From NCBI RefSeq assembly GCF_030698125.1, contig NZ_JAUYNV010000029.1:1-57479 (forward strand): DNA of 57,479 bases, written 5' to 3'. Positions 1 through 14,957 of the stretch are shown here, piece after piece; the first letter of the stretch is position 1; each line of letters opens with the position of its first letter. The notes beneath the pieces are model-generated. The model did not search any database and was not told where the DNA came from. It saw nothing but the letters and a program-made list of their open reading frames with translations. This DNA comes from Methyloversatilis sp. (GTDB taxonomy: Bacteria > Pseudomonadota > Gammaproteobacteria > Burkholderiales > Rhodocyclaceae). Both the position numbers and the translations under genes were made by a program.

Positions 1-639
1 GTCGATGAAGGCATCTTCGATCACGCGCAACAAGGTCGGCTGGTTGCCCTTGACCGCCAGCAGATAGTCGCCACCCTGCGCGACGATGCGCTCGGCGATT
101 GCCTTCTGGCAGCCCATCGCGTCGATGCTGACCAGATACCCCCCAAGGTCCAGTGCCGCCAGCAATTCGGGGATCGCGGTGATTTCGTTGCTCTTGCCGG
201 AAACCTTCTCCTGACCGAGCACCAGCGACAGATCGGTATGAAAGGCACTGACCATGTGCACCGGCCCGTGTTCCGAGTCGGCCGAGCCGCGCAGGGTCTT
301 GCCATCGACGGCGATCTGACCACCCAGCGCGGTAACGATGCCGCCGACCCAGCGGCGAAAGGCCGCCTCGAACTGCCTCGGGTCGATCAACCGGAAGAGG
401 CGCAGAAAGGTGTCCTGCGAGGGCACGCCGTTTTGCAGCACGAGAAAGCGGCGCAGCCACGATTCCTTGACCGCGGCCCACTCTGCGATGTCCTCGACCG
501 TGTCGCAGTCGGACAGCACCGCACACACGGCGATCACCAGAATCTCCTGGAAGTCGTGCCGCGTACCGTTGCTGGGTCGGCGCGGGTCGGCCACCTGCTG
601 CAACGCGCTCATCAGATCGAGTCCATTCGCTGTGCCCAT
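1..639 (-). CDS. ISAs1-family transposase, C-terminus cut by window edge
   Basis: The minus-strand frame is open from the ATG at 639 to the window edge and gives the first 213 residues; family members are about 370-380 residues. The N-terminal associated domain (DPRRPSNGTRHDF, residues 19-30) and the first catalytic aspartate in AVDGKTLRGS (D112) are visible. LAVKGNQPTL near the edge is a family hallmark. An internal ATG at 612 is an alternative start. The enzyme would move the element by a DDE mechanism. It marks the left side of the accessory island. The other end of the element and its inverted repeats are outside the window, so I cannot say whether the copy is intact. Confidence 0.88.
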   Translation of the reverse strand, partial: MGTANGLDLMSALQQVADPRRPSNGTRHDFQEILVIAVCAVLSDCDTVEDIAEWAAVKESWLRRFLVLQNGVPSQDTFLRLFRLIDPRQFEAAFRRWVGGIVTALGGQIAVDGKTLRGSADSEHGPVHMVSAFHTDLSLVLGQEKVSGKSNEITAIPELLAALDLGGYLVSIDAMGCQKAIAERIVAQGGDYLLAVKGNQPTLLRVIEDAFID

Positions 640-976
640 TTCGTACGCCCAAAGGGCGAGAGTGGACGCGATTTTGGAAGGGTGCACAAGAGGTACGTGC
701 AAGTTCATGAATGTGAACGACAATTCAGGGCGGCGGTGTCAATTGGCATATCTCGGTCAGACGATGACATCCGAGTGCGACGGCCCTGGCTGGCTTCCCT
801 ACCCAAGGAGTGGCTGTTCTGCGCCGCTCCATGCTTATGACTCGCCCCAATGAGCGCTGACTTATCCGCCGATATGGTTGTAGGCCTTCTGCATCGCACC
901 TTACCTGCCCATCGATTGAGTTCACCGTACGTGGAAGGAAGGCAACTCAATCAGATAAGGAGAAAGAGAGAAAACG
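640..976. other. Non-coding stretch between transposase and island
   Basis: This stretch of 337 bases has no convincing gene; short frames on both strands lack recognisable motifs. It should hold the right end of the IS element and the promoter of the first island gene. I could not define a terminal inverted repeat because the left end is missing. The last 60 bases hold an inverted repeat (914-952) and a strong purine-rich ribosome binding site (AAGGAGAAAGAGAG, 957-970). Confidence 0.5.
914..952 (+). promoter_or_regulatory. Inverted repeat just upstream of the first island gene
   Basis: GATTGAGTT (914-922) and AACTCAATC (944-952) are perfect 9-base inverted arms separated by 21 bases. The right arm ends 4 bases before the AAGGAG ribosome binding site of the nuclease gene. 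It could be an operator or an mRNA hairpin controlling the island; the function is inferred from position only. Confidence 0.4.
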
Positions 977-1843
977 ATGGCGCGTAGAAGAAAGACCAGT
1001 TCGGCCGAGGATCTGATAGATCTCGTAGCCATGTTGCCTTGGTGGGCCGGCGTCGCGCTGGCTGCGGTTCTCTGGCTTATCTTGCATGGAATGGCGAGCC
1101 AGGAAGTGGTCGCAGTCATCAAGCCAGGTGAGATGGGAGCCATGGTCACGCAGACGATCTGGAAGACGTTGGCGACATTCGGACAATACGTCCTGCCTTT
1201 GATCTGCCTTGCGGGTGCCGGTATCTCGGCGTGGCGCCGGCAAGCGCGCCGCAGGCTCATCGCGGATGTCAGCCAGAGCAACGCAGCCGACGCACTCGAC
1301 GGCATGAGCTGGCGCGAGTTCGAGATGCGGGTGGGCGAGGCCTTCCGGTTACAAGGCTACGGCGTACTTGAAACGGGCGGCGGCGCCGATGGCGGTGTCG
1401 ATCGGGTGCTCTCCAATTGCACCGAGAAGTACCTTGTTCACTGCAAGCAGTGGAAGGCTTTTAAGGTCGGCGTGGATGTGGTGCGAGAACTCCATGGCGT
1501 CATGGCCGCCAAGGGCGCGGCCGGTGGCTTCGTAGTAACCTCCGGGCAGTTCACCGAAGATGCAGTTGGCTTCGCGAGCGGGCGCAATCTGAAACTCATT
1601 GACAGGCCGTTGCTGCATGGGTTGATTCGTCAGGCTCGGAATTCGATAGGGCCGGCGCCTGCACAACAGAGCGGACCATCGTTAGTGTCGGCGGCTCCGG
1701 CGGATACGCCATCAGTACCAGGCTGCCCGAGCTGTACCAAGCCCATGGTGAAGCGAACGGCGAAGCGCGGAGCCAACGCGGGCGAGGAGTTTTGGGGCTG
1801 TTCGGCTTATCCGGTTTGTCGTGACACTATGCAAACAGTATGA
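977..1843 (+). CDS. Membrane-anchored Mrr-like restriction endonuclease with C-terminal zinc ribbon
   Basis: This 288-residue protein has two N-terminal membrane segments (about 21-38 and 68-85) and an Mrr-type PD-(D/E)xK nuclease fold (about 108-225) with GADGGVDRV (D138, D142) and LVHCKQWK. A topoisomerase-type zinc ribbon follows at 250-285 (CPSC and two later cysteines). Mrr-like enzymes cut modified or foreign DNA; the ribbon probably helps bind DNA. The usual E/Q of the (E/Q)xK motif is H155 here, so activity is not certain. The start is set by the AAGGAG box 957-962. It is the first gene of the plus-strand island, and membrane anchoring suggests action on entering DNA (inference). Confidence 0.85.
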   Translation: MARRRKTSSAEDLIDLVAMLPWWAGVALAAVLWLILHGMASQEVVAVIKPGEMGAMVTQTIWKTLATFGQYVLPLICLAGAGISAWRRQARRRLIADVSQSNAADALDGMSWREFEMRVGEAFRLQGYGVLETGGGADGGVDRVLSNCTEKYLVHCKQWKAFKVGVDVVRELHGVMAAKGAAGGFVVTSGQFTEDAVGFASGRNLKLIDRPLLHGLIRQARNSIGPAPAQQSGPSLVSAAPADTPSVPGCPSCTKPMVKRTAKRGANAGEEFWGCSAYPVCRDTMQTV

Positions 1844-1911
1844 AAGTTTCCCAACGACCGCGCGATGGGTTGGCTATGCCCGCTATCTGCGTCTTGCTGC
1901 CGGAGTAACAC

Positions 1912-3498
1912 ATGGCGCTCCCCATCAACATAAACGACCTCCTCGGCGGCAAGCCCGTCGAATGGGAACGCCTCGAATTCAAGGCTGGATGGAACCCCGA
2001 GGCCGTTCTGCACAGCCTCTGCGCCTTCGCCAATGACATTCACAACCTGGGCGGCGGCTACATCCTGATCGGCTTTGCGGAAAGCAATGGGCGTCCAGTT
2101 CTGCCGCCAGTGGGTATCGATCCCGAGCAAATCGACGCCATCCAGAAGGAACTGTTGAACCTCGGCTTCAGTGCCATCGCGCCGTACTACCATCCCATCG
2201 CCGTTCCGGTCGAAATCGAGGGACGGCATGTTCTCGTGCTCTGGGCTTTGGGTGGGCCGACGCGCCCCTACAAGGCAAAAACCAGTCTGAGCAAGGGTAG
2301 CAGGGACTATGCCTATTACATCCGCAAGGGTTCCAGCACCATCCGCGCCAAGGGGGCGGATGAAACGGAACTCATGTCGCTGGCGGCTACCATTCCCCAT
2401 GACGACCGCGTCAACCAGCAGGCCAAGGTGGACAGTCTCTCCCGCGACCTGATGCAGGACTATCTGCAACAGGTGGACAGCGATCTGGCCAGGCAGGCGC
2501 CCAATCTTTCATTGATCGAACTCGGCCGTCAGATGGGAGTCATCGGCGGGCCGGACGAAGCGCCCTTCCCGCTCAATGTTGGCCTGATGATGTTCAATCC
2601 GGAGCCCTGGTGCTTCTTTCCGGCCATGCAGATTGACGTCGTCTGGTTTCCCAAGGAAGGGCCGGGCGGCAACAAATTTTCGGAAAAGATATTCAAAGGC
2701 CCGATACCCCGCATGACCCGCGACGCGCTCGATTACATCAAGCGCAACCTGATTACCGAAACCGTCATCAAGCATCACGGGCGAGCTGAGGCCACCCGGG
2801 TCGAAAACTTCCCTTACGACGCTATCGAAGAAGCCGTCGTCAATGCGGTCTATCACAGGGGCTACGACACGCGCGAGCCGATCGAGGTCCGGATCGAGCG
2901 CAACGAACTATTTGTCATCAGCTATCCGGGGCCGGATCGTTCAGTGCGGCTGGAGCAATTGCGCGCCGGTCGCGCCCGGCCACGACGTTATCGCAATCGC
3001 CGCATCGGCGAATTCCTGAAAGAACTGGAATTCACCGAAGGCCGCGCCACCGGCATCCCCAAGATCATGGAAGCCATGGAGAAGAATGGCTCGCCGCCGG
3101 CCGAGTTCGAGTTCGACGAAGATCACAGCTACTTCATGGTGCGGCTGCCGATCCACCCGGCGGCGCTGGAAGTGGCGGCCTCGGCCGCAGGGGAGGCCAC
3201 GGCGCTGGCCGGGCCAGAGTCGAGGCCAGAGTCGAGGCCAGAGTCGGAGGGCGAATGGCGCTCCCAGCCACAGTGGCGGGCAGAGTGGGGGCCAGAGTCG
3301 ATCCATCACAGAATCATGGCGGCTATCGCTCGCGCCCCCTTGAGCCGTTCGGAAGTTGCGCAGGCCCTGGGCCACAAATCTGTTTCAGGCGCAGCCAAGC
3401 AAGCCATCGCTGACCTCATGGAAGCGGGCCTGGTCGAATTTACCCTCCCGGAAAAACCCAATAGTCGCCTGCAAAAATATCGCAGCCGGAGACGCTGA
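1912..3498 (+). CDS. AlbA_2 (Schlafen-type) DNA-binding protein with RecG-like ATPase domain
   Basis: The 528-residue protein begins with an AlbA_2/Schlafen-type domain (about 15-140; LEFKAGWN, then GGGYILIGF). A GHKL-like ATP-binding domain of the kind annotated as RecG-related HATPase_c_4 follows (about 295-410; EEAVVNAVYHRGY, then GRATGIPKIMEAM). Residues about 435-465 are a low-complexity linker built on a repeated 12-base unit. The last 70 residues look like a winged helix (APLSRSEVAQALGH). Such proteins often sit in defence islands as putative regulators or effectors, but their biochemical role is mostly unknown. It lies 68 bases after the nuclease gene and 14 before the helicase gene. 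Confidence 0.82.
   Translation: MALPININDLLGGKPVEWERLEFKAGWNPEAVLHSLCAFANDIHNLGGGYILIGFAESNGRPVLPPVGIDPEQIDAIQKELLNLGFSAIAPYYHPIAVPVEIEGRHVLVLWALGGPTRPYKAKTSLSKGSRDYAYYIRKGSSTIRAKGADETELMSLAATIPHDDRVNQQAKVDSLSRDLMQDYLQQVDSDLARQAPNLSLIELGRQMGVIGGPDEAPFPLNVGLMMFNPEPWCFFPAMQIDVVWFPKEGPGGNKFSEKIFKGPIPRMTRDALDYIKRNLITETVIKHHGRAEATRVENFPYDAIEEAVVNAVYHRGYDTREPIEVRIERNELFVISYPGPDRSVRLEQLRAGRARPRRYRNRRIGEFLKELEFTEGRATGIPKIMEAMEKNGSPPAEFEFDEDHSYFMVRLPIHPAALEVAASAAGEATALAGPESRPESRPESEGEWRSQPQWRAEWGPESIHHRIMAAIARAPLSRSEVAQALGHKSVSGAAKQAIADLMEAGLVEFTLPEKPNSRLQKYRSRRR
3212..3301 (+). repeat. Short in-gene repeat of a 12-base unit
   Basis: GGCCAGAGTCGA occurs at 3212-3223 and 3224-3235. A copy with one change is at 3236-3247 and another perfect copy at 3290-3301. 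All lie in the linker of the AlbA_2 protein and encode the repeated residues PESR. The unit is a multiple of three, so copy-number change would lengthen or shorten the linker without breaking the frame. Confidence 0.75.
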
Positions 3499-3512
3499 GG
3501 AAATTGCTTGCC

Positions 3513-5615
3513 ATGACTACAAACCCCGCCCTCGCCTGGCTTCGTATCGCCCTCGACAATCCCACCGTCAACTTCCGCGATGGCCAGCGGGAAGCCATCG
3601 ATCAGTTGGTGAATCAGCGCGGGCGGGTACTGTGCGTGCAGCGCACCGGCTGGGGCAAGAGCATGGTCTATTTCGTGTCGGCCAAGCTGATGCGGGAGCA
3701 AGGCGCCGGGCCAACACTGATCATCTCGCCTCTGCTGGCACTGATGCGCAACCAGATTGAAGCGGCAAATCGGTTGAAGCTGCGCGCCGAGACCATCAAC
3801 TCGACCAACTCAGACGACTGGCACGCTGTGCGTCAACGCTTGTTGAACGATGAGATCGACTTGCTGCTGATTTCCCCGGAGCGTTTGGCCAACGATGATT
3901 TCGTGGCCCACACTCTGTTGCCCATCGCAGCACGCATCGGATTGCTGGTGATCGACGAGGCACACTGCATTTCGGATTGGGGGCACGACTTCCGCCCCGA
4001 CTATAGGCGTATTGGCCAGATCCTTCGTCTGCTGCCGCAGAACATCGCGGTGCTGGCAACCACAGCCACGGCGAATCGTCGTGTCGAGGCAGACGTAGGT
4101 GAGCAACTCGGCGGTGGGGTGCTGTTGCAGCGAGGGCCATTGATTCGCGAGAGCCTGGCATTGCAGGTGATGCGTTTGCGCAATCCCGCTGAGCGGCTGG
4201 CCTGGATGGCCGATTGGATTCCGGCGCTTCCCGGCAGTGGCATCGTTTACACACTGACCACGCGGGACGCCGACCGGGTTGCCCAGTCGCTGCGGGAGAA
4301 CGATATCGAGGCGCATGCCTACCATGCAGGCAAGACGGACGACGAGCGTCAGGCCCTGGAAGCTGCACTGTTGGGGAACAAGATCAAGTGCCTGGTAGCG
4401 ACCACAGCGCTGGGCATGGGTTACGACAAGCCTGATCTGGGTTTTGTCATCCACTATCAGACGCCGGGCTCGGTGGTGTTCTATTACCAGCAGGTCGGCC
4501 GGGCAGGGCGTGCCATCGATGAAGCCTTCGGGGTGTTGCTGTCCGGCGACGAGGAAGATGACATCAATGCTTACTTCCGCGATACGGCTTTCCCGCCGGA
4601 GTGGCAGATCGAGCGGATACTCACGGCCTTGGAGAACTGCGAAACCGATGGCATGACTGTGCGGGAGCTGGAGCGTGTCGCCAATCTGCGTCAGTCGCAG
4701 ATCGAAAAGGTATTGAAGCTGCTGGTGGTGGAGAATGCCGCCCCGGTAGTGAAGATCGAGTCCAAATGGAGTCGAACTGCCCAGCCCTTTCGGCTGAACC
4801 GGGAGCGTATCGAGCATTTGATCCGGCAGCGCGAGCAGGAGTGGGCCGAGATGCAGGCCTACATCGAGGGGCGGCAGTGCTTGATGCAGTTCCTCGCGGC
4901 AGCGCTGGATGACCCGCTGGCGCAACCCTGCGGCAAGTGCGCGGTCTGTCGAGGCGCTCCAGTGATTTCTCCTGTCATTTCCGATGTGCGGCTGATCAAG
5001 GCGCAGCGCTTCGTCCGGCAGAGCGAGGTGATGCTGGAACTGAAGAAGCAATGGGATATTTCCGCGCTGCCCGCTTATGCCGCACAGTTTGCCTGGACCA
5101 AGTCGACAATCCCGCTGAACCTCCGTGGTGAGCTGGGCCGTATTCTTTCCCGATGGGGCGAGCCGGTATGGGGCGAACTGGTTGCCAGGGGCAAGGCCGA
5201 GGGACACTTTGCGGATGATCTGGTCGCCGCCTCAGCAGAATTGATTCAAACACGCTGGCCCATGGAGTCGCCCCCTTCATGGGTGACCTGTATTCCATCG
5301 ACCCGCCACCCGGAGCTGGTGCCGAACTTTGCCATGCGCTTGGCAATTTCACTGGGCATTCCATTTCGCCCGGTGCTGATAAAGACCCGCCATACCGAGG
5401 AGCAGAAGGGCATGGAGAATCGCTACCACCAGTGTCACAACCTGGACGGGGCATTCACAGTTCAGGCTCCGGGGCCGGAATTTGCGGGACCTGCGTTGCT
5501 GGTGGACGATGTATTCGATTCCGGATGGACGCTGACCCTTGCGGTCGCTTTGCTCCGGCAGGCTGGAAGCGGACCGGTGTATCCCTACACGCTCGCGACA
5601 ACGACTGCGAAATAG
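3513..5615 (+). CDS. RecQ-family DNA helicase fused to a ComF-like phosphoribosyltransferase domain
   Basis: This 700-residue protein has the RecQ helicase core: Walker A-like RTGWGKS, IDEAHCISDWGHDFRP, ATTALGMGYDKP and QQVGRAGR. A RecQ zinc-binding cluster follows (CLMQF then CGKCAVC). The last 120 residues are a type I phosphoribosyltransferase domain of the ComF kind, with the PRPP loop LLVDDVFDSGWTLTLA and the upstream pattern NRYHQCHNLDGAF. ATG 3513 fits the GAGG box at 3497-3500; TTG 3504 is an alternative. The protein would unwind DNA 3'-5'; the PRTase role is unknown. The next gene encodes a DprA-like protein only 17 bases downstream, echoing the ComFA-ComFC-DprA trio of transformation (inference). 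Confidence 0.9.
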   Translation: MTTNPALAWLRIALDNPTVNFRDGQREAIDQLVNQRGRVLCVQRTGWGKSMVYFVSAKLMREQGAGPTLIISPLLALMRNQIEAANRLKLRAETINSTNSDDWHAVRQRLLNDEIDLLLISPERLANDDFVAHTLLPIAARIGLLVIDEAHCISDWGHDFRPDYRRIGQILRLLPQNIAVLATTATANRRVEADVGEQLGGGVLLQRGPLIRESLALQVMRLRNPAERLAWMADWIPALPGSGIVYTLTTRDADRVAQSLRENDIEAHAYHAGKTDDERQALEAALLGNKIKCLVATTALGMGYDKPDLGFVIHYQTPGSVVFYYQQVGRAGRAIDEAFGVLLSGDEEDDINAYFRDTAFPPEWQIERILTALENCETDGMTVRELERVANLRQSQIEKVLKLLVVENAAPVVKIESKWSRTAQPFRLNRERIEHLIRQREQEWAEMQAYIEGRQCLMQFLAAALDDPLAQPCGKCAVCRGAPVISPVISDVRLIKAQRFVRQSEVMLELKKQWDISALPAYAAQFAWTKSTIPLNLRGELGRILSRWGEPVWGELVARGKAEGHFADDLVAASAELIQTRWPMESPPSWVTCIPSTRHPELVPNFAMRLAISLGIPFRPVLIKTRHTEEQKGMENRYHQCHNLDGAFTVQAPGPEFAGPALLVDDVFDSGWTLTLAVALLRQAGSGPVYPYTLATTTAK

Positions 5616-5632
5616 AGATGGTGTGTCGAAAT

Positions 5633-6946
5633 ATGAGTGAAAGATCGACAGCCAGTCTGTCACCGGATACCGAGGCGATTTTGTTGCTGTGCGGTCGCTT
5701 TGGCAGTGAGCGTGGCGAGCCGAGCTTGGCGAACCCGGCCCCCCTGACGCAAAAAGAGTACGAGCGGCTGACGAAATGGTTGCTCGAGTGCAAGTTACGC
5801 CCCAGCGATTTGCTCGGCGGCGAATTGGCTGGCCGTCTGGGGGAACTGGTTCATGCCGGCCTGGAACCGACGCGCGTAGAGTCGCTGATTGCGCGTGGAA
5901 CCGCCTTGGCGCTAGCTTTGGAAAAATGGCAGCGCAGCGGCCTATGGGTGCTATCACGCAGCGATGCGGCATATCCTAAACGCTTGAAGAAGAAGCTTGG
6001 GCAGTCGGCGCCGCCGTTACTATATGGCGCCGGCGAGACATCATTGCTGGACGTGGGCGGCTTAGCGGTGGTCGGTTCCCGGAATGCCTCGGAAGCAGCG
6101 CTCGACTTCACACGCAATGTGGCCCGTGCTTGTGTGCGAGATGGCCTGGGCGTGATATCCGGCGGCGCCAAGGGTGTGGACGCTGCCGCACTGCAGGGCG
6201 CCGGGGAAGCCGGTGGGGTGGTGATCGGCGTATTGGCCGCCGATTTGCTGCGTGCCAGCGTGAATAGGCAGAACCGGATGGGCATTCAGTCCGGACAGCT
6301 TGTGTTGACCTCACCCTTTAATCCCGAGTCCGGCTTCAATGCTGGAAACGCGATGGCGCGCAATCGATATATTTATGCCCTGGCCGACTACGCTCTGGTG
6401 GTTGACTCCGCAGAGGGGGAGGGTGGAACTTGGGCCGGTGCCACTGAAGACTTGCGCCATGGCTGGACTCCGCTTTATGTGCGTACCCCCAGCGAGAGCC
6501 CGGGCAATGCGGCACTGATTGCAAGGGGAGCCGAAGGATTCACCTACGGGGTTTCCGAACGCGCATCGATACGCGAGTTTCTCGAGAAAACTTGTCAGTC
6601 CGACCCATCGCCATTGTTTCAACAGGTCGTTCTAGACAAGGGCGCCACGATGATTGAGCAACCAGCGCCCGCCCCAGTTGCAGTTGATGTGCTCGTCACG
6701 CCCGAGCCGGGGGCGGCGGCAGATGCAACGCCGTTCCCGGGATTCGATATGTTTCAGGATTTTCTTGCCAGACTGCCCTTGCTACTCGGCGAAGCGGCAA
6801 AAAGTGATGAAGAAATCCGGCTTGCACTGGGTTTGGAGAAAGGGCAGCTCAAGGTCTGGTTGGCCGCAGCCGTCGAGCAAGGATTCCTCGAAAAGCGGAA
6901 GAAACCGGTGAGCTATGCGTTACCTCGCCAAAAGGCGCTTTGCTAA
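5633..6946 (+). CDS. DprA-like DNA-processing protein
   Basis: The 437-residue protein has the DprA/LOG Rossmann fold in its middle: AVVGSRNAS, then SGGAKGVDAAALQGAG, and later ARNRYIYALADYALVV. The N-terminal 130 residues look like a helical SAM-like extension. The C-terminus (about 375-430; KSDEEIRLALGLEKGQ) resembles the DprA winged helix. DprA binds incoming single-stranded DNA and loads RecA in transformation; DprA-like and LOG proteins also occur in defence islands as nucleotide-binding or sensing parts. ATG 5633 is chosen; in-frame ATG 5618 is possible. It follows the RecQ-ComF gene by 17 bases, so the two are probably one functional unit. Confidence 0.87.
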   Translation: MSERSTASLSPDTEAILLLCGRFGSERGEPSLANPAPLTQKEYERLTKWLLECKLRPSDLLGGELAGRLGELVHAGLEPTRVESLIARGTALALALEKWQRSGLWVLSRSDAAYPKRLKKKLGQSAPPLLYGAGETSLLDVGGLAVVGSRNASEAALDFTRNVARACVRDGLGVISGGAKGVDAAALQGAGEAGGVVIGVLAADLLRASVNRQNRMGIQSGQLVLTSPFNPESGFNAGNAMARNRYIYALADYALVVDSAEGEGGTWAGATEDLRHGWTPLYVRTPSESPGNAALIARGAEGFTYGVSERASIREFLEKTCQSDPSPLFQQVVLDKGATMIEQPAPAPVAVDVLVTPEPGAAADATPFPGFDMFQDFLARLPLLLGEAAKSDEEIRLALGLEKGQLKVWLAAAVEQGFLEKRKKPVSYALPRQKALC

Positions 6947-6967
6947 GCCTACGTTGAGTCTTAGGCC

Positions 6968-8125
6968 ATGAGCGAGTACCAGTACTACGAATTCGCCGCC
7001 ATCGACCGGCCGCTCACCCGAGCCGAGATGGCCGAACTTCGCGCCGTTTCCACGCGCGCTGAGATTACTCCGGCGGGATTCGTCAACCACTACGAGTGGG
7101 GCAGCCTGAAAGCCGAACCGGCCGACTGGATGCGGCGTTACTTCGATGCCTTCATCTATTCGGCCAACTGGTGCAATTGCCGGCTGGCCTTGCGGGTGCC
7201 GCTGGCCACATTCCGCAAAGCCGAACTGAAGCCTTTCGAGACCAGATATGCGCTGACCATCGAGGCCAGCGATGAGTACTGGATTTTCGACTGGGCGCTT
7301 GATGAAAGCGAAGACTACGATCGCTTCGTCGAGGACGACGGCAGCGGCTGGATGCGACGCCTGGCGCCGCTGCGCGATGAATTGCTGCGCGGCGATTTAC
7401 GGCCGCTCTACCTGGGCTGGCTGGCCGGGGCCAGCGGCGGCGAGCTGCGCGAGGATGCGCAGGAACCCGAGGTGCCGCCCGGATTGTCGGAGTTGTCCCC
7501 GCAGCAGCAGGCGCTGGTCGAATTCCTGGAAATCGATCCCGACATGCTGGCGGCCGCCATGGCCGGAAGTCCTCCAGTTTCGCCGGCGGGCGTCGCCGAG
7601 GCAGATCGCATCGATGCCTGGCTGGAGGAATGGCGGCGCGACGAGATGGTGGCCGTACTCAAGCTAATCGCACAGGGCAGAGCGCAGGAAGCGGAACGCC
7701 GCGTCAGGTCCAGCCATGCCGCCTGGCTGAAATCGCAACGCCCGGCCCTCGCCCCCGCCACGGTGAGACGCAGCGTAGCCGAACTGCGCGAGCTCGCAAA
7801 ATCCGCTGCCACAGTGCGGCTGGAGCGTGAAGCGAAGGAGCGCGCAAAGCAGGAAGCCGAACGCCGCCAGCAGCGTGAAACCTACCTGCGACAGCTGATG
7901 GCCGAAGTGGACAAACACTGGGACGCCATCGACGTGCAGGCGAAGCGCGGTTCCGCATCGGGCTACGAGCAAGCGGTGCGGGCCCTCGTCGATCTGGCCG
8001 AAGGTTACGCGCTCACCTCCAGCCGCAACGAGTTCGAGCGGGCATTGCGGCGCTTCGTCGTGCGCCATGCGACACGCGGCGCTTTGTTGCGGCGGTTGAC
8101 CGAGGCGGGTCTATGGTCGGGATGA
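6968..8125 (+). CDS. Unknown 385-residue protein coupled to the primase-helicase
   Basis: I do not recognise a characterised family. The N-terminal 110 residues look like a compact conserved domain (EYQYYEFAAIDRPLTRAEM; WMRRYFDAFIYSANW; LALRVPLATF). Residues about 210-330 are charged and helical, with a likely coiled coil (REAKERAKQEAERRQQRET). The C-terminus is helical and basic. There are no membrane segments or obvious catalytic motifs. Its stop overlaps the start of the primase-helicase gene (ATGA at 8122-8125), which points to coupled translation and joint action. I recall similar hypothetical proteins beginning with the same EYQYYEF signature elsewhere, but not a function. Confidence 0.75.
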   Translation: MSEYQYYEFAAIDRPLTRAEMAELRAVSTRAEITPAGFVNHYEWGSLKAEPADWMRRYFDAFIYSANWCNCRLALRVPLATFRKAELKPFETRYALTIEASDEYWIFDWALDESEDYDRFVEDDGSGWMRRLAPLRDELLRGDLRPLYLGWLAGASGGELREDAQEPEVPPGLSELSPQQQALVEFLEIDPDMLAAAMAGSPPVSPAGVAEADRIDAWLEEWRRDEMVAVLKLIAQGRAQEAERRVRSSHAAWLKSQRPALAPATVRRSVAELRELAKSAATVRLEREAKERAKQEAERRQQRETYLRQLMAEVDKHWDAIDVQAKRGSASGYEQAVRALVDLAEGYALTSSRNEFERALRRFVVRHATRGALLRRLTEAGLWSG

Positions 8126-10542
8126 CAATGAGCATGGACGACGAACTCGCCCGGCTACGTGCCGAGAACACCCGGCTGATCGCTTTGCTGGACGCCCACA
8201 GTATCGCCTGGCGTCTGCCTGAACCCGAAAGCGTGCCGGCTGCGTCGGCATTGCTGACCACCGACGAAAAGGTCGCTCTCTTTCGCCGGCTGTTTCGGGG
8301 CCGTACCGATGTCTATCCGGCCCGCTGGGAAAGCAAAGCCGGCAAGGGCGGGTATTCGCCAGTCTGTGCCAACGAGTGGCGCACCGGTGTTTGCGAGAAA
8401 CCCCGCATCAAGTGCGCAGACTGCGGCAACCGGCTGCTGGTGCCCCTGAGCGATCAGACGATCTACGATCACCTCGCCGGCCGCCACACTGTCGGCGTAT
8501 ATCCGCTGCTGGCGGATGACAGCTGCCATTTCCTCGCGGTGGATTTCGATGACGCCGATTGGCGCAGCGATGCGCAGGCCTTTGCCCAATCCTGTCGCGA
8601 ACTGGATGTGCCCATCGCGCTGGAAATCTCTCGCTCGGGTAACGGCGCCCATGCATGGATATTCTTCTCGTCGAAGGTCGTGGCGCGGGATGCGCGGCGG
8701 CTCGGTACTGCGATCATTAGCCACACTTGCGCACGCACCCGGCAACTGAAGCTCACGTCCTACGACCGGCTGTTCCCGAACCAGGACACCATGCCTAAGG
8801 GCGGTTTCGGTAACTTGATCGCCCTGCCGCTGCAGAAGGTTCCGCGGGAGAACGGCGGCAGCGTGTTCGTGGACGATGCTCTGCGGCTGTATCCCGACCA
8901 ATGGGCTTTCCTGGCGTCGGTGCAGCCCATGGCGCCGCACGATATCGAGCCGACGATCCTGCGCGCCACCGGCGGCTCGCATCCGCTGGATGTCACGTTC
9001 ATCACCGAAGAGGATCAGCAAGAGCCGTGGAAGCATACGTCACCGGCCAAGTTGCGGCTCCCGGGCCCGATGCCGGCCTCGCTGACGGCGACCTTGGCCA
9101 ATCTCCTCTACTTCGACAAGGCGCAGCTTCCGCAAGCGCTGGCGAACCGTCTGATCCGCTTGGCAGCCTTCCAGAACCCAGAGTTCTACAGGGCGCAGGC
9201 GATGCGTCTGCCAGTCTGGGACGAGCCGCGGGTGATCGGCTGTGCCGAGAACTACCCGAACCACATCGCCCTGCCGCGGGGCTGCCTTGATGCCGCCCAG
9301 GAGTTGCTACGCGAAAACAGTGTTCGTTGTGAGTTGCGAGACGAGCGCTTTGGCGGCAAGCCGCTGGACGTAAGCTTTGTCGGAACGCTGCGGTCAGATC
9401 AGGAGGCTGCAGTCGCTGCGATGCTTCGCCACGATGTCGGCATCCTGTGTGCGCCAACCGCCTTCGGCAAGACCGTGACGGCCGCAGCGCTGATCGCCCG
9501 GCGTGGTGTGAACACCCTGGTGCTGGTGCATCGCACCGAATTGCTCAAGCAGTGGCAGGAGCGGCTGCAGGCATTTCTAGGAGTCGGAAAGAACGTGATC
9601 GGCACCATCGGCGGCGGCAAAGCCAAGCCCACCGGCAAGATCGATATCGCGGTGATGCAGTCGCTCTCAAGGCAGGGCGAGACCAATGAAATCGTCGAGA
9701 ACTACGGGCAGGTCATCGTCGACGAGTGCCACCACCTCTCGGCATTCTCCTTCGAGGCCATCCTGAAGCGTGCCCGGGCCAAGTATGTGCTCGGGCTCAC
9801 CGCCACGCCGATCCGACGCGACGGGCGGCAGCCGATCATCTTCATGCAGTGCGGGCCGATCCGACACACCGCGGCGAAGCCGACTGGCGCGCCGCAAACC
9901 TTGGAGGTGATTCCCCGTTACCTGGCAGGGCGCATTGACCTCGCCGCCGACGCCGCCATCCAGGATGTATTCAGGCATGTCGCCAACGACGCCGGCCGTA
10001 CGGCGGCCATAACGAACGAAATCGTGGGTGCCTTCGGGCAGGGGCACAAGGTGCTGGTGCTGACCGAGCGCACCGAACACCTTGACGCCATCGGTACGGT
10101 ATTGGCGGGCCGCGTCCCGACGCTATTCACGCTGCACGGCCGCATGTCGAAGAAGCAGCGTGCCGCCTTGATCAGCGAACTGGACGCCCTGCCCACTGAT
10201 GCGCCTCGGGTGCTCTTGTCTACCGGCAAGCTGGTCGGCGAAGGCTTCGACCACCCACCGCTCGACACCCTGGTGCTAGCCATGCCGATCTCGTGGAAGG
10301 GCACGCTGCAGCAGTACGCCGGCCGCCTGCATCGGGAGCATGCGAACAAGACCCATGTGCGCATCATCGACTTTGTCGATGCTGGCCACCCGGCCCTGCT
10401 GCGGATGTGGGGCAAGCGACAGCGGGGCTATCAGGCGATGGGCTACCGAATTCCCTCTGCCCCGGCCAGTTACAATCTGGACTTCAGGTTGGTCGCAGCG
10501 AACGAGCCGGATGTTGTCGTGACAGAATTGGGCGTGAAATGA
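8122..10542 (+). CDS. TOTE-type archaeo-eukaryotic primase fused to a superfamily 2 helicase
   Basis: This 806-residue protein starts with a short coiled coil (LARLRAENTRLIALL). A zinc-binding element (cysteines about 82, 91, 98, 101) comes next, then an archaeo-eukaryotic primase-like domain with the catalytic VDFDD (about 140-144) and SGNGAHAWIFF, as in the family named TOTE conflict-system primase. From about residue 420 it is an SF2 helicase: CAPTAFGKT (Walker A), VDECHHLS (DECH box), LTATPIRRDG and QQYAGRLHRE. It could prime or copy DNA while translocating. Family knowledge places it in phage or plasmid conflict systems. ATG 8122 overlaps the previous stop; ATG 8113 in the same frame is possible. 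Confidence 0.86.
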   Translation: MTMSMDDELARLRAENTRLIALLDAHSIAWRLPEPESVPAASALLTTDEKVALFRRLFRGRTDVYPARWESKAGKGGYSPVCANEWRTGVCEKPRIKCADCGNRLLVPLSDQTIYDHLAGRHTVGVYPLLADDSCHFLAVDFDDADWRSDAQAFAQSCRELDVPIALEISRSGNGAHAWIFFSSKVVARDARRLGTAIISHTCARTRQLKLTSYDRLFPNQDTMPKGGFGNLIALPLQKVPRENGGSVFVDDALRLYPDQWAFLASVQPMAPHDIEPTILRATGGSHPLDVTFITEEDQQEPWKHTSPAKLRLPGPMPASLTATLANLLYFDKAQLPQALANRLIRLAAFQNPEFYRAQAMRLPVWDEPRVIGCAENYPNHIALPRGCLDAAQELLRENSVRCELRDERFGGKPLDVSFVGTLRSDQEAAVAAMLRHDVGILCAPTAFGKTVTAAALIARRGVNTLVLVHRTELLKQWQERLQAFLGVGKNVIGTIGGGKAKPTGKIDIAVMQSLSRQGETNEIVENYGQVIVDECHHLSAFSFEAILKRARAKYVLGLTATPIRRDGRQPIIFMQCGPIRHTAAKPTGAPQTLEVIPRYLAGRIDLAADAAIQDVFRHVANDAGRTAAITNEIVGAFGQGHKVLVLTERTEHLDAIGTVLAGRVPTLFTLHGRMSKKQRAALISELDALPTDAPRVLLSTGKLVGEGFDHPPLDTLVLAMPISWKGTLQQYAGRLHREHANKTHVRIIDFVDAGHPALLRMWGKRQRGYQAMGYRIPSAPASYNLDFRLVAANEPDVVVTELGVK

Positions 10543-10955
10543 AGACAAAAAGCCAATCTTCAATATCCGTACGGGCTGCCGTCTGTTTTTCAAAGAATGG
10601 CGCCGGGAACATGCCGTGTCTCTGTGCGTCAATGAACAACTGCCCTGACGCTGCGTTCGACTCAAGTGGTCGCAGACCGTCCATTTGGAGCCCGCACTTT
10701 GCGGGTAGCCAGACGGGTAGCTGGCGACAGACAAAAGAAATTGTTGAGCCGTATATTATTGATGTTGCAGAACAAAGCTGCACGCACCCTATCTATTCGA
10801 CATCGTGCTGCTGTGGCGCGCCAGACGAGTCCGGCCCTGCCATCGCCCCATGCGTGACAGACGGTCACGGATTCCGCAGTGCAATGGCTGACGGCGGGGC
10901 GTGTTTTGTGGTTTGATCGGGTTCGTGCTCGAACGACTGACAGAACCTGGTTGCC
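10543..10955. other. Gene-poor right edge of the accessory island
   Basis: This stretch of 413 bases has no convincing gene. One plus frame starting at 10539 overlaps the helicase stop and runs to 10916, but the product has no domain, is irregular in composition and has stray cysteine clusters. The first 250 bases are visibly richer in A/T than the core genome to the right. It is likely the boundary between island and core genome; no tRNA or attachment repeat could be recognised. Confidence 0.45.
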
Positions 10956-11342
10956 ATGGGACTCAAGGACCGCATCCGCGCCATCAAGCTCGAATTGATG
11001 GCGCTCGCAATTGCAGCGCAGGACACACGCACGCCGCGACGCGCAAAAATTCTCTTGCTGTTCCTGCTCGCCTACGCGGCCAGCCCGATCGATCTGATCC
11101 CCGATTTCATCCCGGTGCTCGGCCTGCTCGACGAGGTCATCCTGCTGCCGATCGGCGTCTGGATAGTGGTCGGCATGATTCCGCCGGACGTGATGGAGGC
11201 GGCGCGGGCGCGGGCGCGCGAGGGCAAGCTGCCGGCCAACTGGATTGCCGGCGTGATCGTGCTGCTGCTGTGGGCGGCCAGCATCGCGGCCATCGTGTGG
11301 TGGTGGATGAACTATCGGGACGCCGGTCAAGCCGGTAGCTGA
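10956..11342 (+). CDS. DUF1232 (YkvA-like) small membrane protein
   Basis: The 128-residue protein carries the DUF1232 signature SPIDLIPDFIPVLGLLDE at residues 45-62, two central hydrophobic stretches, and a C-terminal membrane helix (about 98-117; WIAGVIVLLLWAASIAA). The family is widespread in bacterial inner membranes and its function is not established. It is the first clearly core-genome gene after the island and stands alone, with 190 bases to the next gene. Confidence 0.88.
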   Translation: MGLKDRIRAIKLELMALAIAAQDTRTPRRAKILLLFLLAYAASPIDLIPDFIPVLGLLDEVILLPIGVWIVVGMIPPDVMEAARARAREGKLPANWIAGVIVLLLWAASIAAIVWWWMNYRDAGQAGS

Positions 11343-11532
11343 GCGGCAGCCGATCGGCGCTGCCCTTCTTCTGTTGCCGCTGTGGCCCACCGACGGGCGA
11401 CGGCCTTACTCCGCGGGTGTCAATCTTTTACAATCCGGCGTCGCCATGTCCGCAGGTCGAACGCGGGTGGGTGATGCGCGTACCGGGAACGCGCTGCAAA
11501 CCACCCACACCTGACCGAAAGGCCTTGCGAAG

Positions 11533-12405
11533 ATGGGACTCAGACTCAAGTTCAACCTGGTGCTGATCGGCGTGTTCGCGATCGGTCTGGCGGCCTGCGC
11601 CGCGTTGTCGCACCAGCTGCTGCACGACAACGCGCGCGCCGAGGTCGAGCGCAATGCGCGGCTGATGATGGAAACCGCGCTCGCCATTCGCGCCTATACG
11701 GTCAGCCAGATCAAGCCGCACCTCGATCCGCTGCTGTCGGAACAGTTCCTGCCGCAGACCGTGCCGGCCTATGCCGCGACCGAAACGATCAACGAGCTGC
11801 GCAAGAACCACCCGGAGTACGCCTACAAGGAGGCGACGCTGAACCCGACCAATCCGCGCGACCGCGCGTCGGACTGGGAAACGGACATCGTCACCAGCTT
11901 CCGCAACGCCGAGGATACGAAGGAGCTGACCGGCGTGCGCGAAACGCCGACCGGTCGCCACATGTACATCGCGCGGCCGATCCGCATCACCAATCCGGCC
12001 TGTCTGGCCTGCCACAACACGGCCGCCACGGCGCCGCCGACGATGGTGAAGGTGTATGGCGAGGCGAACGGCTTCGGCTGGAAGCTGAATGAAATCATCG
12101 GTGCGCAGGTGGTGTCGGTGCCGATGACGCTGCCGGTGACCAATGCCGACCGTGCCTTCAACACCTTCATGCTGTCGCTGCTCGGCGTGTTCGTGTTCGT
12201 CATGGTGGCGCTCAACCTGATGCTCGAATGGCTGATCATCCGCCCGGTGGCGCGGCTGTCGGCTGCGGCCGACCAGATCAGTACCGGCGACTTTTCGGTG
12301 CCCGAGTTCCGTGATTCCGGCAAGGACGAAGTGTCGGTGCTCGGCGCATCCTTCAACCGCATGCGGCGCAGCCTTGAAACGGCGATGCGCATGATAGACA
12401 GCTGA
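11533..12405 (+). CDS. Tll0287-like c-type haem sensor with HAMP domain
   Basis: This 290-residue protein has an N-terminal membrane helix (about 8-27), a periplasmic DUF3365/Tll0287-like domain holding one haem c site CLACH (about residues 157-161), a second membrane helix (about 215-240), and a HAMP domain (IIRPVARLSAAADQI to the end). There is no kinase, methyl-accepting or GGDEF output in the same chain. Family knowledge suggests redox or gas sensing by the haem. The kinase gene follows by 2 bases and begins with GTG, so the HAMP output probably signals to that kinase in trans (inference). Confidence 0.85.
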   Translation: MGLRLKFNLVLIGVFAIGLAACAALSHQLLHDNARAEVERNARLMMETALAIRAYTVSQIKPHLDPLLSEQFLPQTVPAYAATETINELRKNHPEYAYKEATLNPTNPRDRASDWETDIVTSFRNAEDTKELTGVRETPTGRHMYIARPIRITNPACLACHNTAATAPPTMVKVYGEANGFGWKLNEIIGAQVVSVPMTLPVTNADRAFNTFMLSLLGVFVFVMVALNLMLEWLIIRPVARLSAAADQISTGDFSVPEFRDSGKDEVSVLGASFNRMRRSLETAMRMIDS

Positions 12406-12407
12406 CC

Positions 12408-14546
12408 GTGACGACCGGTCCGCAACCGCCGTCGGATACCGGGGACGACGAGCCGTTCACCGCAGACAGCGTGAACGCCGAAGTGCTGGCGGGCAGCGGC
12501 TTCCTGCCGACCGCCAACGCCAGCCCCGGCGCGCTGCCGGCCGGCTGGGCGCTGAACGAGTACCGCATCGAATCGCTGCTCGGCGGCGGCGGCTTCGGCC
12601 TGACCTATCTGGCGCACGACACGCTGCTCGACTGCAAGGTCGCCATCAAGGAGTTCCTGCCGACCGACATCGCGATCCGCGGCGACGGCCAGCGCGTGAT
12701 GCCGCGCAGCGGTCCGGCGGTCGAAATGTTCGAACAGGGCCTGCGCCGCTTTCTCGACGAATCGCGCGCGCTGGCCAACTTCCGTCACCCGCACATCGTG
12801 CGCGTCAGCCGCTTCTTCGAGGCGAATGGCAGCGCCTACATGGTGATGGACTATGAGCGGGGCCGGCCGCTGAACCAGTGGGTGCGCGAGCGCGGCGCGC
12901 GCATCGACCGCGCCACATTGCTGGCCATCGTGCGGCCGCTGCTCGAAGGCCTGCAGGTGATCCACGATGGTGGCTTCCTGCATCGAGACATCAAGCCGCC
13001 CAATATCTGCATCCGCGACGACGGCGCACCGGTGCTGCTCGATTTCGGCGCCGCCCGCCGCTATCACGACACCGAACATACGCTGACCGCCATCGTCACG
13101 CCCGGCTTTGCGCCGTTCGAGCAGTACCACTCGCATGGCAATCAGGGGCCGTGGACCGACATCTATTCGCTGTCGGCGGTCATGTACTGGCTGGTCACCG
13201 GCCAGCGGCCGGTCGAATCGGCCGCGCGCATCCAGAACGACCCGCTGATTCCCGCGTCGCGGCTGGCCGACGCGTCCGTGTTCGGCGCCTCGCTGCTGCG
13301 CGCCATCGACTGGGGGCTGGAGCCGCACGATTCGAAGCGACCGCGCAGCATCGCGGACTTCCGCCGGGTATTCACCGCGGCGCCGGCCACGGCGCGCGGC
13401 CCGCTGGCGGCCGGCGCGGCATCGGCACCGGCACCGGTCGCCGCGCCGGTACGCGCGATCGGCGCGTCGGAAGAACGGCGCACCATCGTGTGCAGCGTGC
13501 TGTATGCGCAGATCGGCGACAGCCAGCGGCTGGACACCGCGCAGCGGCTGGCCTGCAAGTCGGAGCTCGACGACGCGCTGGCGCGTGCCGCGCGCTCGGT
13601 CGATGCCGACAGCCGGCTCATCCTCGACACGCCGGACGGCACCGCGCTGTGTCTGCTCGGCCAGCCGGAAGACGCCTGCGTCGTCGCCCAGCATCTGCGC
13701 AAGCTCGACTTCGCCGATGACAGCGGCCAGAACGGCCAGGGTTTGAAGCAGGGCATCAATCTGGGCCCGGTGCGCGTGTCGCGTTCCGGCAGCGGTGCGC
13801 TCGACCTGCATGGCGACGGGCTGGATGCCGCGCGTGCGCTGGCCGGACTGGCGCATGCCGGCCAGGTTCTGGTGTCGCGCGCCTATTACGAAACCGTATC
13901 GGCGCTGGGCAGTGGTGCGCCGGACGGCCTGCACATCACCGGCCAGCGGGTCGAAATCGCGTCGCGCAGCCAGGAGGTGTTCGAACTCGACAGCCGCAGC
14001 GGCATCACGCGGCGCAGTGAGGTCGCACAACCGGTGCTGGCGCCCGACGCGCTGACGCCGCTGCTCGAAGCGCTGCTGGCGCGCCACATCGGGCCGATGG
14101 CGCGCGTGCTGGTGACACGTATCGCGCCTCAGGCAACGTCGGCGCCGCACCTGATCGAACAACTCGCCGCGCACATTCCGAACGATGCGCAGCGCGCCGG
14201 TTTCCTGATCGAGGCCAAGCGCCACGTCGTGCAGACCGGCGCGACCACGTCGCGCTCATCGCAGTCGATGTCCGGTGCCGCGGCTTCGGGCGCGATATCG
14301 ACGTCGCGCAGCAGCCTGCCGCCGACCGGCACATCTAGCCGCTACGTGTCGTCCGCGCCCCGGCCGCTCGACGACGCGGTGATTGCCGACATCGAGCGCC
14401 GTCTGGCGCGGCTGATCGGTCCGGTGGCGCGCATTCTGGTCGGTCGCGCGCTCAAGCGCACCGGCACCGAGCAGGGACTGCTGGAAGAGCTGGCGCGCGA
14501 CATTCCCGACCCGGTGCAGCGCGCGGCTTTCGTCGCGGGCAAATAG
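12408..14546 (+). CDS. Serine/threonine kinase with degenerate nucleotide-cyclase domain and duplicated C-terminal modules
   Basis: This 712-residue cytoplasmic protein starts with GTG. The kinase (about 50-325) is complete: GGGGFGLTYLA loop, VAIKEF lysine, HRDIKPPN loop and LLDFGAAR. A class III nucleotide-cyclase-like domain follows (about 355-525; KQGINLGPV, GDGLDAARAL). Its first metal-binding aspartate is replaced in LYAQIGDSQRL, so it is probably a non-catalytic sensor. Two copies of a helical module close the protein (about 545-600 and 660-710; IGPMARVLVTR and IGPVARILVGR). It sits between the haem sensor and a zinc-ribbon protein, with 2-base gaps on each side. Confidence 0.88.
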   Translation: MTTGPQPPSDTGDDEPFTADSVNAEVLAGSGFLPTANASPGALPAGWALNEYRIESLLGGGGFGLTYLAHDTLLDCKVAIKEFLPTDIAIRGDGQRVMPRSGPAVEMFEQGLRRFLDESRALANFRHPHIVRVSRFFEANGSAYMVMDYERGRPLNQWVRERGARIDRATLLAIVRPLLEGLQVIHDGGFLHRDIKPPNICIRDDGAPVLLDFGAARRYHDTEHTLTAIVTPGFAPFEQYHSHGNQGPWTDIYSLSAVMYWLVTGQRPVESAARIQNDPLIPASRLADASVFGASLLRAIDWGLEPHDSKRPRSIADFRRVFTAAPATARGPLAAGAASAPAPVAAPVRAIGASEERRTIVCSVLYAQIGDSQRLDTAQRLACKSELDDALARAARSVDADSRLILDTPDGTALCLLGQPEDACVVAQHLRKLDFADDSGQNGQGLKQGINLGPVRVSRSGSGALDLHGDGLDAARALAGLAHAGQVLVSRAYYETVSALGSGAPDGLHITGQRVEIASRSQEVFELDSRSGITRRSEVAQPVLAPDALTPLLEALLARHIGPMARVLVTRIAPQATSAPHLIEQLAAHIPNDAQRAGFLIEAKRHVVQTGATTSRSSQSMSGAAASGAISTSRSSLPPTGTSSRYVSSAPRPLDDAVIADIERRLARLIGPVARILVGRALKRTGTEQGLLEELARDIPDPVQRAAFVAGK

Positions 14547-14548
14547 CG

Positions 14549-14935
14549 GTGGCAAAACTTTCACGCTGTCCGCACTGCGGACAAGACACGATTGCGCGTC
14601 TGGTCAAGCTGATGGCGCGCGCCAAAGCCCCGGCGATCTGCCCGGCCTGCGGCGGACGCTCATGCACCGGCATCACGCCGCTGTCGCTGCTGTCGTTCTT
14701 CGTACTGATTCTGGTATGCGGCACGCTGTTGCGCGCCGCGGGCCGCCTGGGCAACCGGTGGACGCTGCTGGGCGTGCTGGCGCTGTTCATTGGCGGCTTC
14801 CTGTACATCAGCTTCCACACCGGGCTGGTGAAGCTGGAGCGCTATCCGATGCAGCGCAATATCGCCATCGGGGTCGTGGCGCTGCTGGCGATCGGCTTTT
14901 CGTGGTGGTGGTTCAGCCGCGGCACCGCAAGCTGA
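14549..14935 (+). CDS. Small zinc-ribbon membrane protein
   Basis: The 128-residue protein has an N-terminal zinc ribbon (CPHCG at 8-12, CPACGG at 31-36) and three hydrophobic helices (about 45-62, 70-88 and 104-122). It begins with GTG two bases after the kinase stop. It is the third gene of the signalling operon and could be a membrane substrate or docking partner of the kinase (inference). The sequence matches no family whose function I know. Confidence 0.75.
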   Translation: MAKLSRCPHCGQDTIARLVKLMARAKAPAICPACGGRSCTGITPLSLLSFFVLILVCGTLLRAAGRLGNRWTLLGVLALFIGGFLYISFHTGLVKLERYPMQRNIAIGVVALLAIGFSWWWFSRGTAS

Positions 14936-14957
14936 TGACCGGTCGCGCGCGGCCGCA

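Follow-up and report, generated by a model that had tools for sequence, protein, structure and literature searches.

PsyrTA, also described as RqlHI, is a toxin–antitoxin family in which a RecQ-family helicase fused to a phosphoribosyltransferase (PRTase) domain is followed, on the same strand, by the gene for a DprA-like protein. PsyrTA was reportedly tried against phages in a 2022 survey, which is cited by PMC10121019 and PMC10855318. Here we describe such a pair in Methyloversatilis sp. (contig NZ_JAUYNV010000029.1), whose 57,479-nucleotide stretch, analysed as a whole, is called the window below. The pair consists of psyrT at positions 3513–5615 and psyrA at positions 5633–6946, both on the plus strand. 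It is near certain to belong to the PsyrTA (RqlHI) family, and it is a typical copy of a system that has already been described, not a new combination of helicase, PRTase and DprA-like protein.

According to passages of the RqlHI study (PMC4670107), RqlH in the absence of RqlI causes SOS induction, filamentation and mutations in E. coli. Growth inhibition and SOS induction depend on the PRTase domain and on D663, and the isolated domain is not toxic; deletion of the PRTase domain or the D663A substitution removes most of the toxicity. The same passages report that the co-precipitation of RqlI with RqlH is lost upon removal of the PRTase domain, and that E. coli K-12 MG1655 has neither of the two genes. 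A title in a reference list names the RqlH of M. smegmatis as a 3'-5' translocase. In the related ShosTA system, as summarized in parts of a review (PMC12593503), ShosT acts both as a PRTase and as a pyrophosphatase and upsets purine metabolism, ShosA binds DNA, and the phage T7 protein Gp0.7 acts as the trigger. PADLOC includes PsyrTA among its defence systems, known or candidate, and excerpts of a P. aeruginosa panel study (PMC10855318) list it with the abortive ones; of its 11 carriers in that panel, 81.8% belong to the resistant group, which is a correlation only.

Assignment of the pair to the PsyrTA family

Both proteins of the window are recognized almost end to end by the paired PADLOC models for PsyrT and PsyrA (PDLC03928/PDLC03927). 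The PsyrT match reaches 958.9 bits and covers residues 4–699 of 700, while the PsyrA match reaches 437.5 bits and covers residues 9–430, corresponding to positions 3–396 of the 398 in the profile. The RqlH-type protein of E. coli EC958 is 55% identical to the window PsyrT over 707 columns and carries its Walker lysine at position 49, the DEAH aspartate at position 148 and a DIVD motif starting at position 663. K49 and D148 have the same numbers in the window protein, and its D666 is aligned to D663. Since the EC958 numbering is that of the positions mutated in the RqlH work (K49A, D148A, DIVD663EVME and D663A, in passages of PMC4670107), this comparison ties the window pair to experimentally tested proteins.

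The window pair thus shares with PsyrTA/RqlHI the order and orientation of the two genes, the near-complete profile matches and the catalytic residues at equivalent positions. It differs in the 17-base gap between its genes, as in 45 of 62 loci the toxin gene extends past the point corresponding to residue 1 of PsyrA (with extrapolated starts), and in its local neighbours, which are not common to the other loci.

Two other described systems show partial likeness. ShosTA follows the same logic of a PRTase toxin and a DprA-fold antitoxin; PsyrA scores 80 and 32.8 bits with the PADLOC models for ShosA, and the folds of PsyrA and, weakly, of the PsyrT PRTase domain resemble the ShosTA entries 8zva and 8zvb, respectively. 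However, the PRTase of the window is fused to a RecQ helicase, whereas ShosT is not known to contain a helicase. Membership of ShosTA was rejected on the basis of this fusion and of the lower ShosA score of PsyrA (80 versus 437.5 bits for the PsyrA model). DpdF, the helicase of the Dpd DNA modification system, has a RecQ-type helicase region, and many PADLOC DpdF models match PsyrT. In contrast to the PsyrT assignment, the NCBIfam DpdF model stays below its cut-off (168.1 of 550 bits), and the top PADLOC DpdF model reaches 298.6 bits, compared with 958.9 bits for PsyrT. The matches of two PADLOC DpdF models, PDLC02866 and PDLC02869, fall on the PRTase region of PsyrT, suggesting that these models may themselves contain RqlH-type sequences.

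The helicase and PRTase domains of PsyrT

The psyrT gene is a single uninterrupted frame of 700 codons with an ATG start and a TAG stop at 5613–5615. Its product is a putative toxin of PsyrT/RqlH type, composed of a RecQ-family superfamily 2 helicase and a C-terminal PRTase domain. Residues 20–342 match the RecQ-family helicase model TIGR00614 (244.8 bits; cut-off 219.8), and the Pfam domains DEAD and Helicase_C are present. The RecQ zinc domain, at residues 437–480, falls just under its Pfam cut-off (24.1 versus 25 bits). The Walker A motif (TGWGK49S), the DEAH motif (D148EAHC) and the zinc cysteines C456, C473, C476 and C479 are readily identified; K49, D148 and the four cysteines are at least 95% conserved in a 63-row alignment that includes the window.

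The PRTase domain occupies residues 501–700 (positions 5013–5612, plus strand) and contains the phosphoribosyl pyrophosphate (PRPP) loop LLVDDVFDSGWT, with residues D665, D666, D669, S670 and T673. Because the Pfam match to Pribosyltran, at residues 606–685, stays below its threshold (18.3 versus 26.3 bits), the fold of the C-terminus was tested by structure prediction. AlphaFold2, supplied with an alignment with 57 relatives, modeled residues 501–700 with a predicted local distance difference test score (pLDDT) of 93.4. All 21 Foldseek matches of this model at E ≤ 0.001 have the PRTase fold, including PurF-type amidotransferases, APRT and the ComF protein of H. pylori (HpComF; 7p0h). The template modeling scores (TM-scores) are modest, the best being 0.54 for 7p0h and the other 49 lying below 0.5 among the 50 rows listed. 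The ShosTA entry 8zvb appears at rank 42 with an E value of 3.8e-3.

The PRPP loop is conserved within the family. In an alignment of the window with 57 of 60 usable related loci (the near-duplicates L009, L049 and L071 were excluded), the PRPP-loop residues D665, D666, D669, S670, W672 and T673 do not vary in any of the 58 rows, while position 668 is V, I, F or T and position 671 is G, A, R or V. As judged from the predicted model, the C-terminal domain of PsyrT is a PRTase of ComF-like fold with its PRPP loop intact, in agreement with a preliminary description of this stretch, which had proposed a RecQ helicase with such a domain and a structural comparison with ComF proteins.

The DprA-like protein PsyrA

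The psyrA gene starts with an ATG at 5633, 17 bases past the psyrT stop and on the same strand; this spacing, and both ends of the pair, had been given exactly in the preliminary description. Its product of 437 residues is a putative antitoxin of PsyrA/RqlI type (PADLOC, structural model and Foldseek) and matches the Pfam family DNA_processg_A with 119 bits. The model comprises a helical N-terminal domain, a DprA-like Rossmann (SLOG) domain, a linker at residues 327–368 and a C-terminal domain. Its pLDDT is 86.1, with low confidence only at residues 1–6 and in the linker. The fold resembles those of DprA from S. pneumoniae and R. palustris (3uqz, 3maj) and of E. coli ShosA (8zva), and the C-terminal domain looks winged-helix-like from the order of its predicted helices and strands.

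The alignment of PsyrA contains the window and 51 of 55 usable loci, the near-duplicates L009, L040, L051 and L071 being excluded. Each of the 52 rows matches the PADLOC PsyrA model, and the ShosA models too. The linker is poorly conserved, while G264, G265, T266, G269 and E272 are invariant in 52 of 52 rows. By analogy with LOG proteins, these residues would line the pocket.

Distribution and settings of the pair

A peptide-pattern scan that started from the window's own PsyrA returned 65 loci, and in 62 of them PsyrT lies upstream of PsyrA on the same strand. The extrapolated distance between the two is −24 to +83 bases in 61 of these 62 loci; in the remaining one (L070) PsyrT is fragmented. 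Two of the three loci that lack PsyrT are cut by the start of the contig (L065 and L072), while the third, L068, has room upstream. In this locus from Thiohalocapsa halophila (5484–7251), an open reading frame on the opposite strand (5484–6491), transposase-like by eye, lies directly upstream of a partial psyrA, so that the locus may be an interrupted copy.

As this first scan was seeded by PsyrA, a search with the PRTase domain only was added for 274 genomes of the class, of which 60 match at E ≤ 0.001. Nine genomes, with ten places and including the window's own genome, score at least 47 bits. The other 51 score at most 31 bits, many of them in frames of 230–330 codons as expected of ComF. 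The downstream DNA can be read at eight of the ten strong places, and PsyrA adjoins the PRTase domain at all eight; both copies of one genome (G200) end at contig ends.

The pair is patchily distributed. Searches of 40 relatives (12 from the genus, 12 from the family and 16 from the order) revealed no fusion: the best match, of 220.8 bits, covers residues 6–489, and none of the matches listed reaches the PRTase domain. All 12 congeners searched are accordingly without a helicase–PRTase fusion among these matches. The closest copies (91–92% identity for PsyrT and 85% for PsyrA) are found in metagenome-assembled genomes named Rhodocyclaceae and Sulfurisoma. Of 5426 complete E. coli genomes, 1621 contain the EC958 variant with a query coverage of 80% or more, and it is therefore common in this species. 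Among 50,697 phage records, 5 match PsyrA, with no match spanning 80% of the protein; among 72,556 plasmid records, 7 do, two of them with matches that span 80%.

The genomic settings vary. In EC958, the pair is located between gntU and yhgN; elsewhere it stands beside an RNA ligase, with an AAA ATPase nearby (L008), or beside RmuC (L009). On an E. coli plasmid (L118, 1–8602), psyrTA is embedded in a type I restriction operon, with the specificity subunit on one side and the restriction subunit on the other. The same type I restriction setting is seen on an E. coli chromosome (L122, 1194–12527), where an insertion element is located inside the helicase gene. In the Gordonia phage Bosnia (L120, 2381–4038), a ShosA-like gene adjoins a PRTase gene beside an integrase; at a threshold of E 1e-5, PADLOC recognizes the DprA-like protein of this phage but not the PRTase.

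The island and its other genes

The pair resides on a strain-specific island spanning positions 1–10,800 of the window, as delimited by comparing positions 1–15,000 (blastn) and the island proteins (tblastn) with the homologous region in five genomes of the same genus. About 10.8 kb, including the pair, are missing at this site in all five. Four of the regions resemble the window only from 10,796–10,850 onwards and the fifth, which is more distant, from 10,959, and none of the six left-hand island genes was found in the approximately 11 kb fetched beyond the junction in these congeners. The gene at 11,533, by contrast to the island genes, is shared by all 13 genomes of the genus, with 80–100% identity. 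The G+C content of the six island genes is 0.60–0.65, versus 0.675 for positions 11,500–57,479. Together, the absence from congeners and the lower G+C content make gain of the island more likely than its loss in all of the other genomes, and the pair is thus more likely an accessory gain. As position 1 of the window is also the first of the contig, the island is traced on its left side up to this point. A transposase frame (DDE_Tnp_1_assoc and DDE_Tnp_1), which resembles the ISAs1 kind, occupies positions 1–738 of the minus strand and runs off the contig start.

The island genes are arranged on the plus strand in the order Mrr nuclease, Schlafen/AlbA_2 ATPase, psyrT, psyrA, orphan and TOTE primase–helicase. 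According to Pfam, the first encodes an Mrr-type nuclease with a zinc ribbon (977–1843) and the second a Schlafen protein with AlbA_2 and HATPase_c_4 domains (1912–3498), which ends 14 bases before psyrT. The orphan (6968–8125; 385 residues) starts 21 bases after psyrA and has no family match in the profile libraries used, including Pfam and PADLOC. It is overlapped by 13 bases by the gene for an AEP-TOTE primase and helicase (8113–10,542; Pfam). The last five genes follow one another closely, at distances between −13 and +21 bases.

In tblastn searches of the 65 PsyrA loci, with flanks of up to 8 kb and many shorter, the Mrr, Schlafen, orphan and TOTE proteins gave no match at E ≤ 1e-6, apart from one weak match to the TOTE helicase region in L061. 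Because these neighbours do not recur, we regard the psyrTA pair as the unit, and the Schlafen, orphan and TOTE proteins were rejected as members of the system. Weighing against the rejection of the Schlafen neighbour, L009 contains a protein with AlbA_2 and HATPase_c_4 domains about 2.6 kb upstream of psyrT.

Relatives of the orphan occur in 5 of the 274 class genomes, its own included, with 31–47% identity in the others and internal stops in the copy of G065. In L109, the relative is located beside an AAA_21 ATPase. A partnership of the orphan with the TOTE protein is not supported: no TOTE match was present in the two regions read around orphan homologues (L108 and L109), although the genome of L108 does have a TOTE primase, about 350 kb away. 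The AEP-TOTE domain itself is above its Pfam cut-off in 26 of the 274 class genomes, and the TOTE primase–helicase of the window has weak matches, confined to the helicase part, in 2 of 12 congeners.

Proposed function of the pair

The best explanation of the locus, to which we assign a probability of roughly 0.68, is a PsyrTA (RqlHI) operon in which a helicase-steered PRTase toxin is restrained by a DprA-fold antitoxin until infection or DNA stress sets it free. What is observed directly at this locus is the membership of the family, the order of the genes, the intact catalytic residues and the location on a strain-specific island. The toxin role, its chemistry and its trigger would be as in the studied relatives. 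By this analogy, PsyrT would be the toxin, and its PRTase domain may consume PRPP, in line with the reported action of the related ShosT on purine pools, and may thereby cause DNA damage. The RecQ part would guide or regulate PRTase activity on DNA. PsyrA would bind the PRTase domain and hold PsyrT in check, and its DprA fold may in addition allow it to bind single-stranded DNA. Once infection or DNA damage upsets this balance, the cell would stop growing or die before the phage spreads.

Several points weigh against this proposal. The toxicity, neutralization and defence ascribed to these two proteins come by analogy with relatives, and the RqlI-type partner in EC958 is only 36% identical to PsyrA. 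The proposed effect on purines is modelled on ShosT, and in the Foldseek comparison PurF, APRT and ComF all rank above its entry. According to passages of PMC4670107, many bacteria, particularly Gram-positives, have rqlH but no rqlI, while our genome sample covers a single class. Moreover, parts of another study (PMC12409345) report no detectable phage protection by the PsyrTA of E. coli NILS69 in an expression assay, in which the strain had a growth defect.

The pair might instead act in DNA repair or modification, with the PRTase altering a nucleotide in DNA, PsyrA resolving the product and toxicity arising only when the two are unbalanced. This is the model drawn in the RqlHI paper, where it is accompanied by SOS induction and a raised mutation rate (passages of PMC4670107), and both the fusion of a helicase to the PRTase and the DprA-like fold of PsyrA are compatible with it. 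However, the passages of that paper show no DNA modification, the pair is accessory rather than core, and one E. coli plasmid carries it within a type I restriction operon (the neighbours of the EC958 copy are metabolic). We therefore consider a role in repair or modification unlikely.

Another possibility is nucleotide signalling, in which the PRTase makes a PRPP-derived molecule that is bound by the SLOG/DprA pocket of PsyrA. The conservation of both sites, the PRPP loop in 58 of 58 rows and the PsyrA residues that would line the pocket in 52 of 52, would fit such an exchange, but pockets of the DprA family may be conserved for other reasons. In addition, RqlH and RqlI bind each other (passages of PMC4670107), so that a diffusible signal is not needed, and no neighbour in the window recurs with the pair, except for the single weak helicase-region match. 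Signalling of this kind appears quite improbable. We hold equally low expectations for its more specific form, a minimal sensor–signal–receiver circuit in place of a simple toxin–antitoxin pair, where the PsyrT PRTase would be activated when the helicase meets foreign or damaged DNA and would make a PRPP-derived nucleotide read by PsyrA.

Relation to the competence machinery

The preliminary description had read the locus as a transformation-like module in a defence setting, with the trio of competence functions rebuilt around RecQ. Its components are real, as the helicase, the ComF-like PRTase and the DprA fold are all present, and the pair is indeed accessory and a candidate defence system. 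The rebuilt transformation module is not supported, since the pair belongs to a known toxin–antitoxin family. The likeness to ComFA/ComFC/DprA had already been discussed in passages of PMC4670107 (2015) and PMC5512222 (2017).

The window pair shares with the competence proteins the helicase, PRTase and DprA functions and the fold likeness to HpComF, and across 56 residues the PsyrT PRTase is 37.5% identical to the ComF candidate of this genome (blastp, E 3e-5). It differs in having a RecQ-family helicase fused to the PRTase and in scores below the TIGR cut-offs: PsyrT reaches 19.6 bits for comF (cut-off 233.55) and PsyrA 89.3 bits for dprA (cut-off 191.15). The comF cut-off is strict, being missed also by the genome's comF candidate and by 12 of 14 control genomes. 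Furthermore, the genome encodes a separate set of these functions, namely a second, better-scoring dprA on contig C13 (264.9 bits), a comF candidate on contig C57 (96.9 bits) and a protein of the Competence family PF03772 (183.4 bits). The C13 gene rules out psyrA as the housekeeping dprA. The preliminary description had named a C-terminal domain without the PRTase fold, or a sole dprA acting in ordinary transformation, as grounds against its reading, and neither is seen here.

The separate dprA, comF candidate and Competence-family protein, together with the short extent of the ComF match and the accessory nature of the pair, make a role in ordinary transformation unlikely. That RecQ, the ComF-like PRTase and the DprA-like protein jointly handle incoming single-stranded DNA in place of ComFA/ComFC/DprA is the least probable of the explanations, hardly to be expected despite the resemblance of its domains to ComF and DprA, given the genome's own competence genes, the sub-threshold scores, the patchy occurrence on an island, and passages of PMC4670107 in which the RqlH PRTase domain is genotoxic and the authors saw no transformation in their isolates.

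Implications

The apparent novelty of a helicase–PRTase–DprA combination is resolved by its assignment to a known toxin–antitoxin family, which spares the pursuit of a transformation module. For the organism, the window copy represents a clear case of what is more likely an accessory gain. The product of the helicase-linked PRTase, and its release, are a question for the whole PsyrTA/RqlHI family, and this copy is as suitable as any for addressing it.

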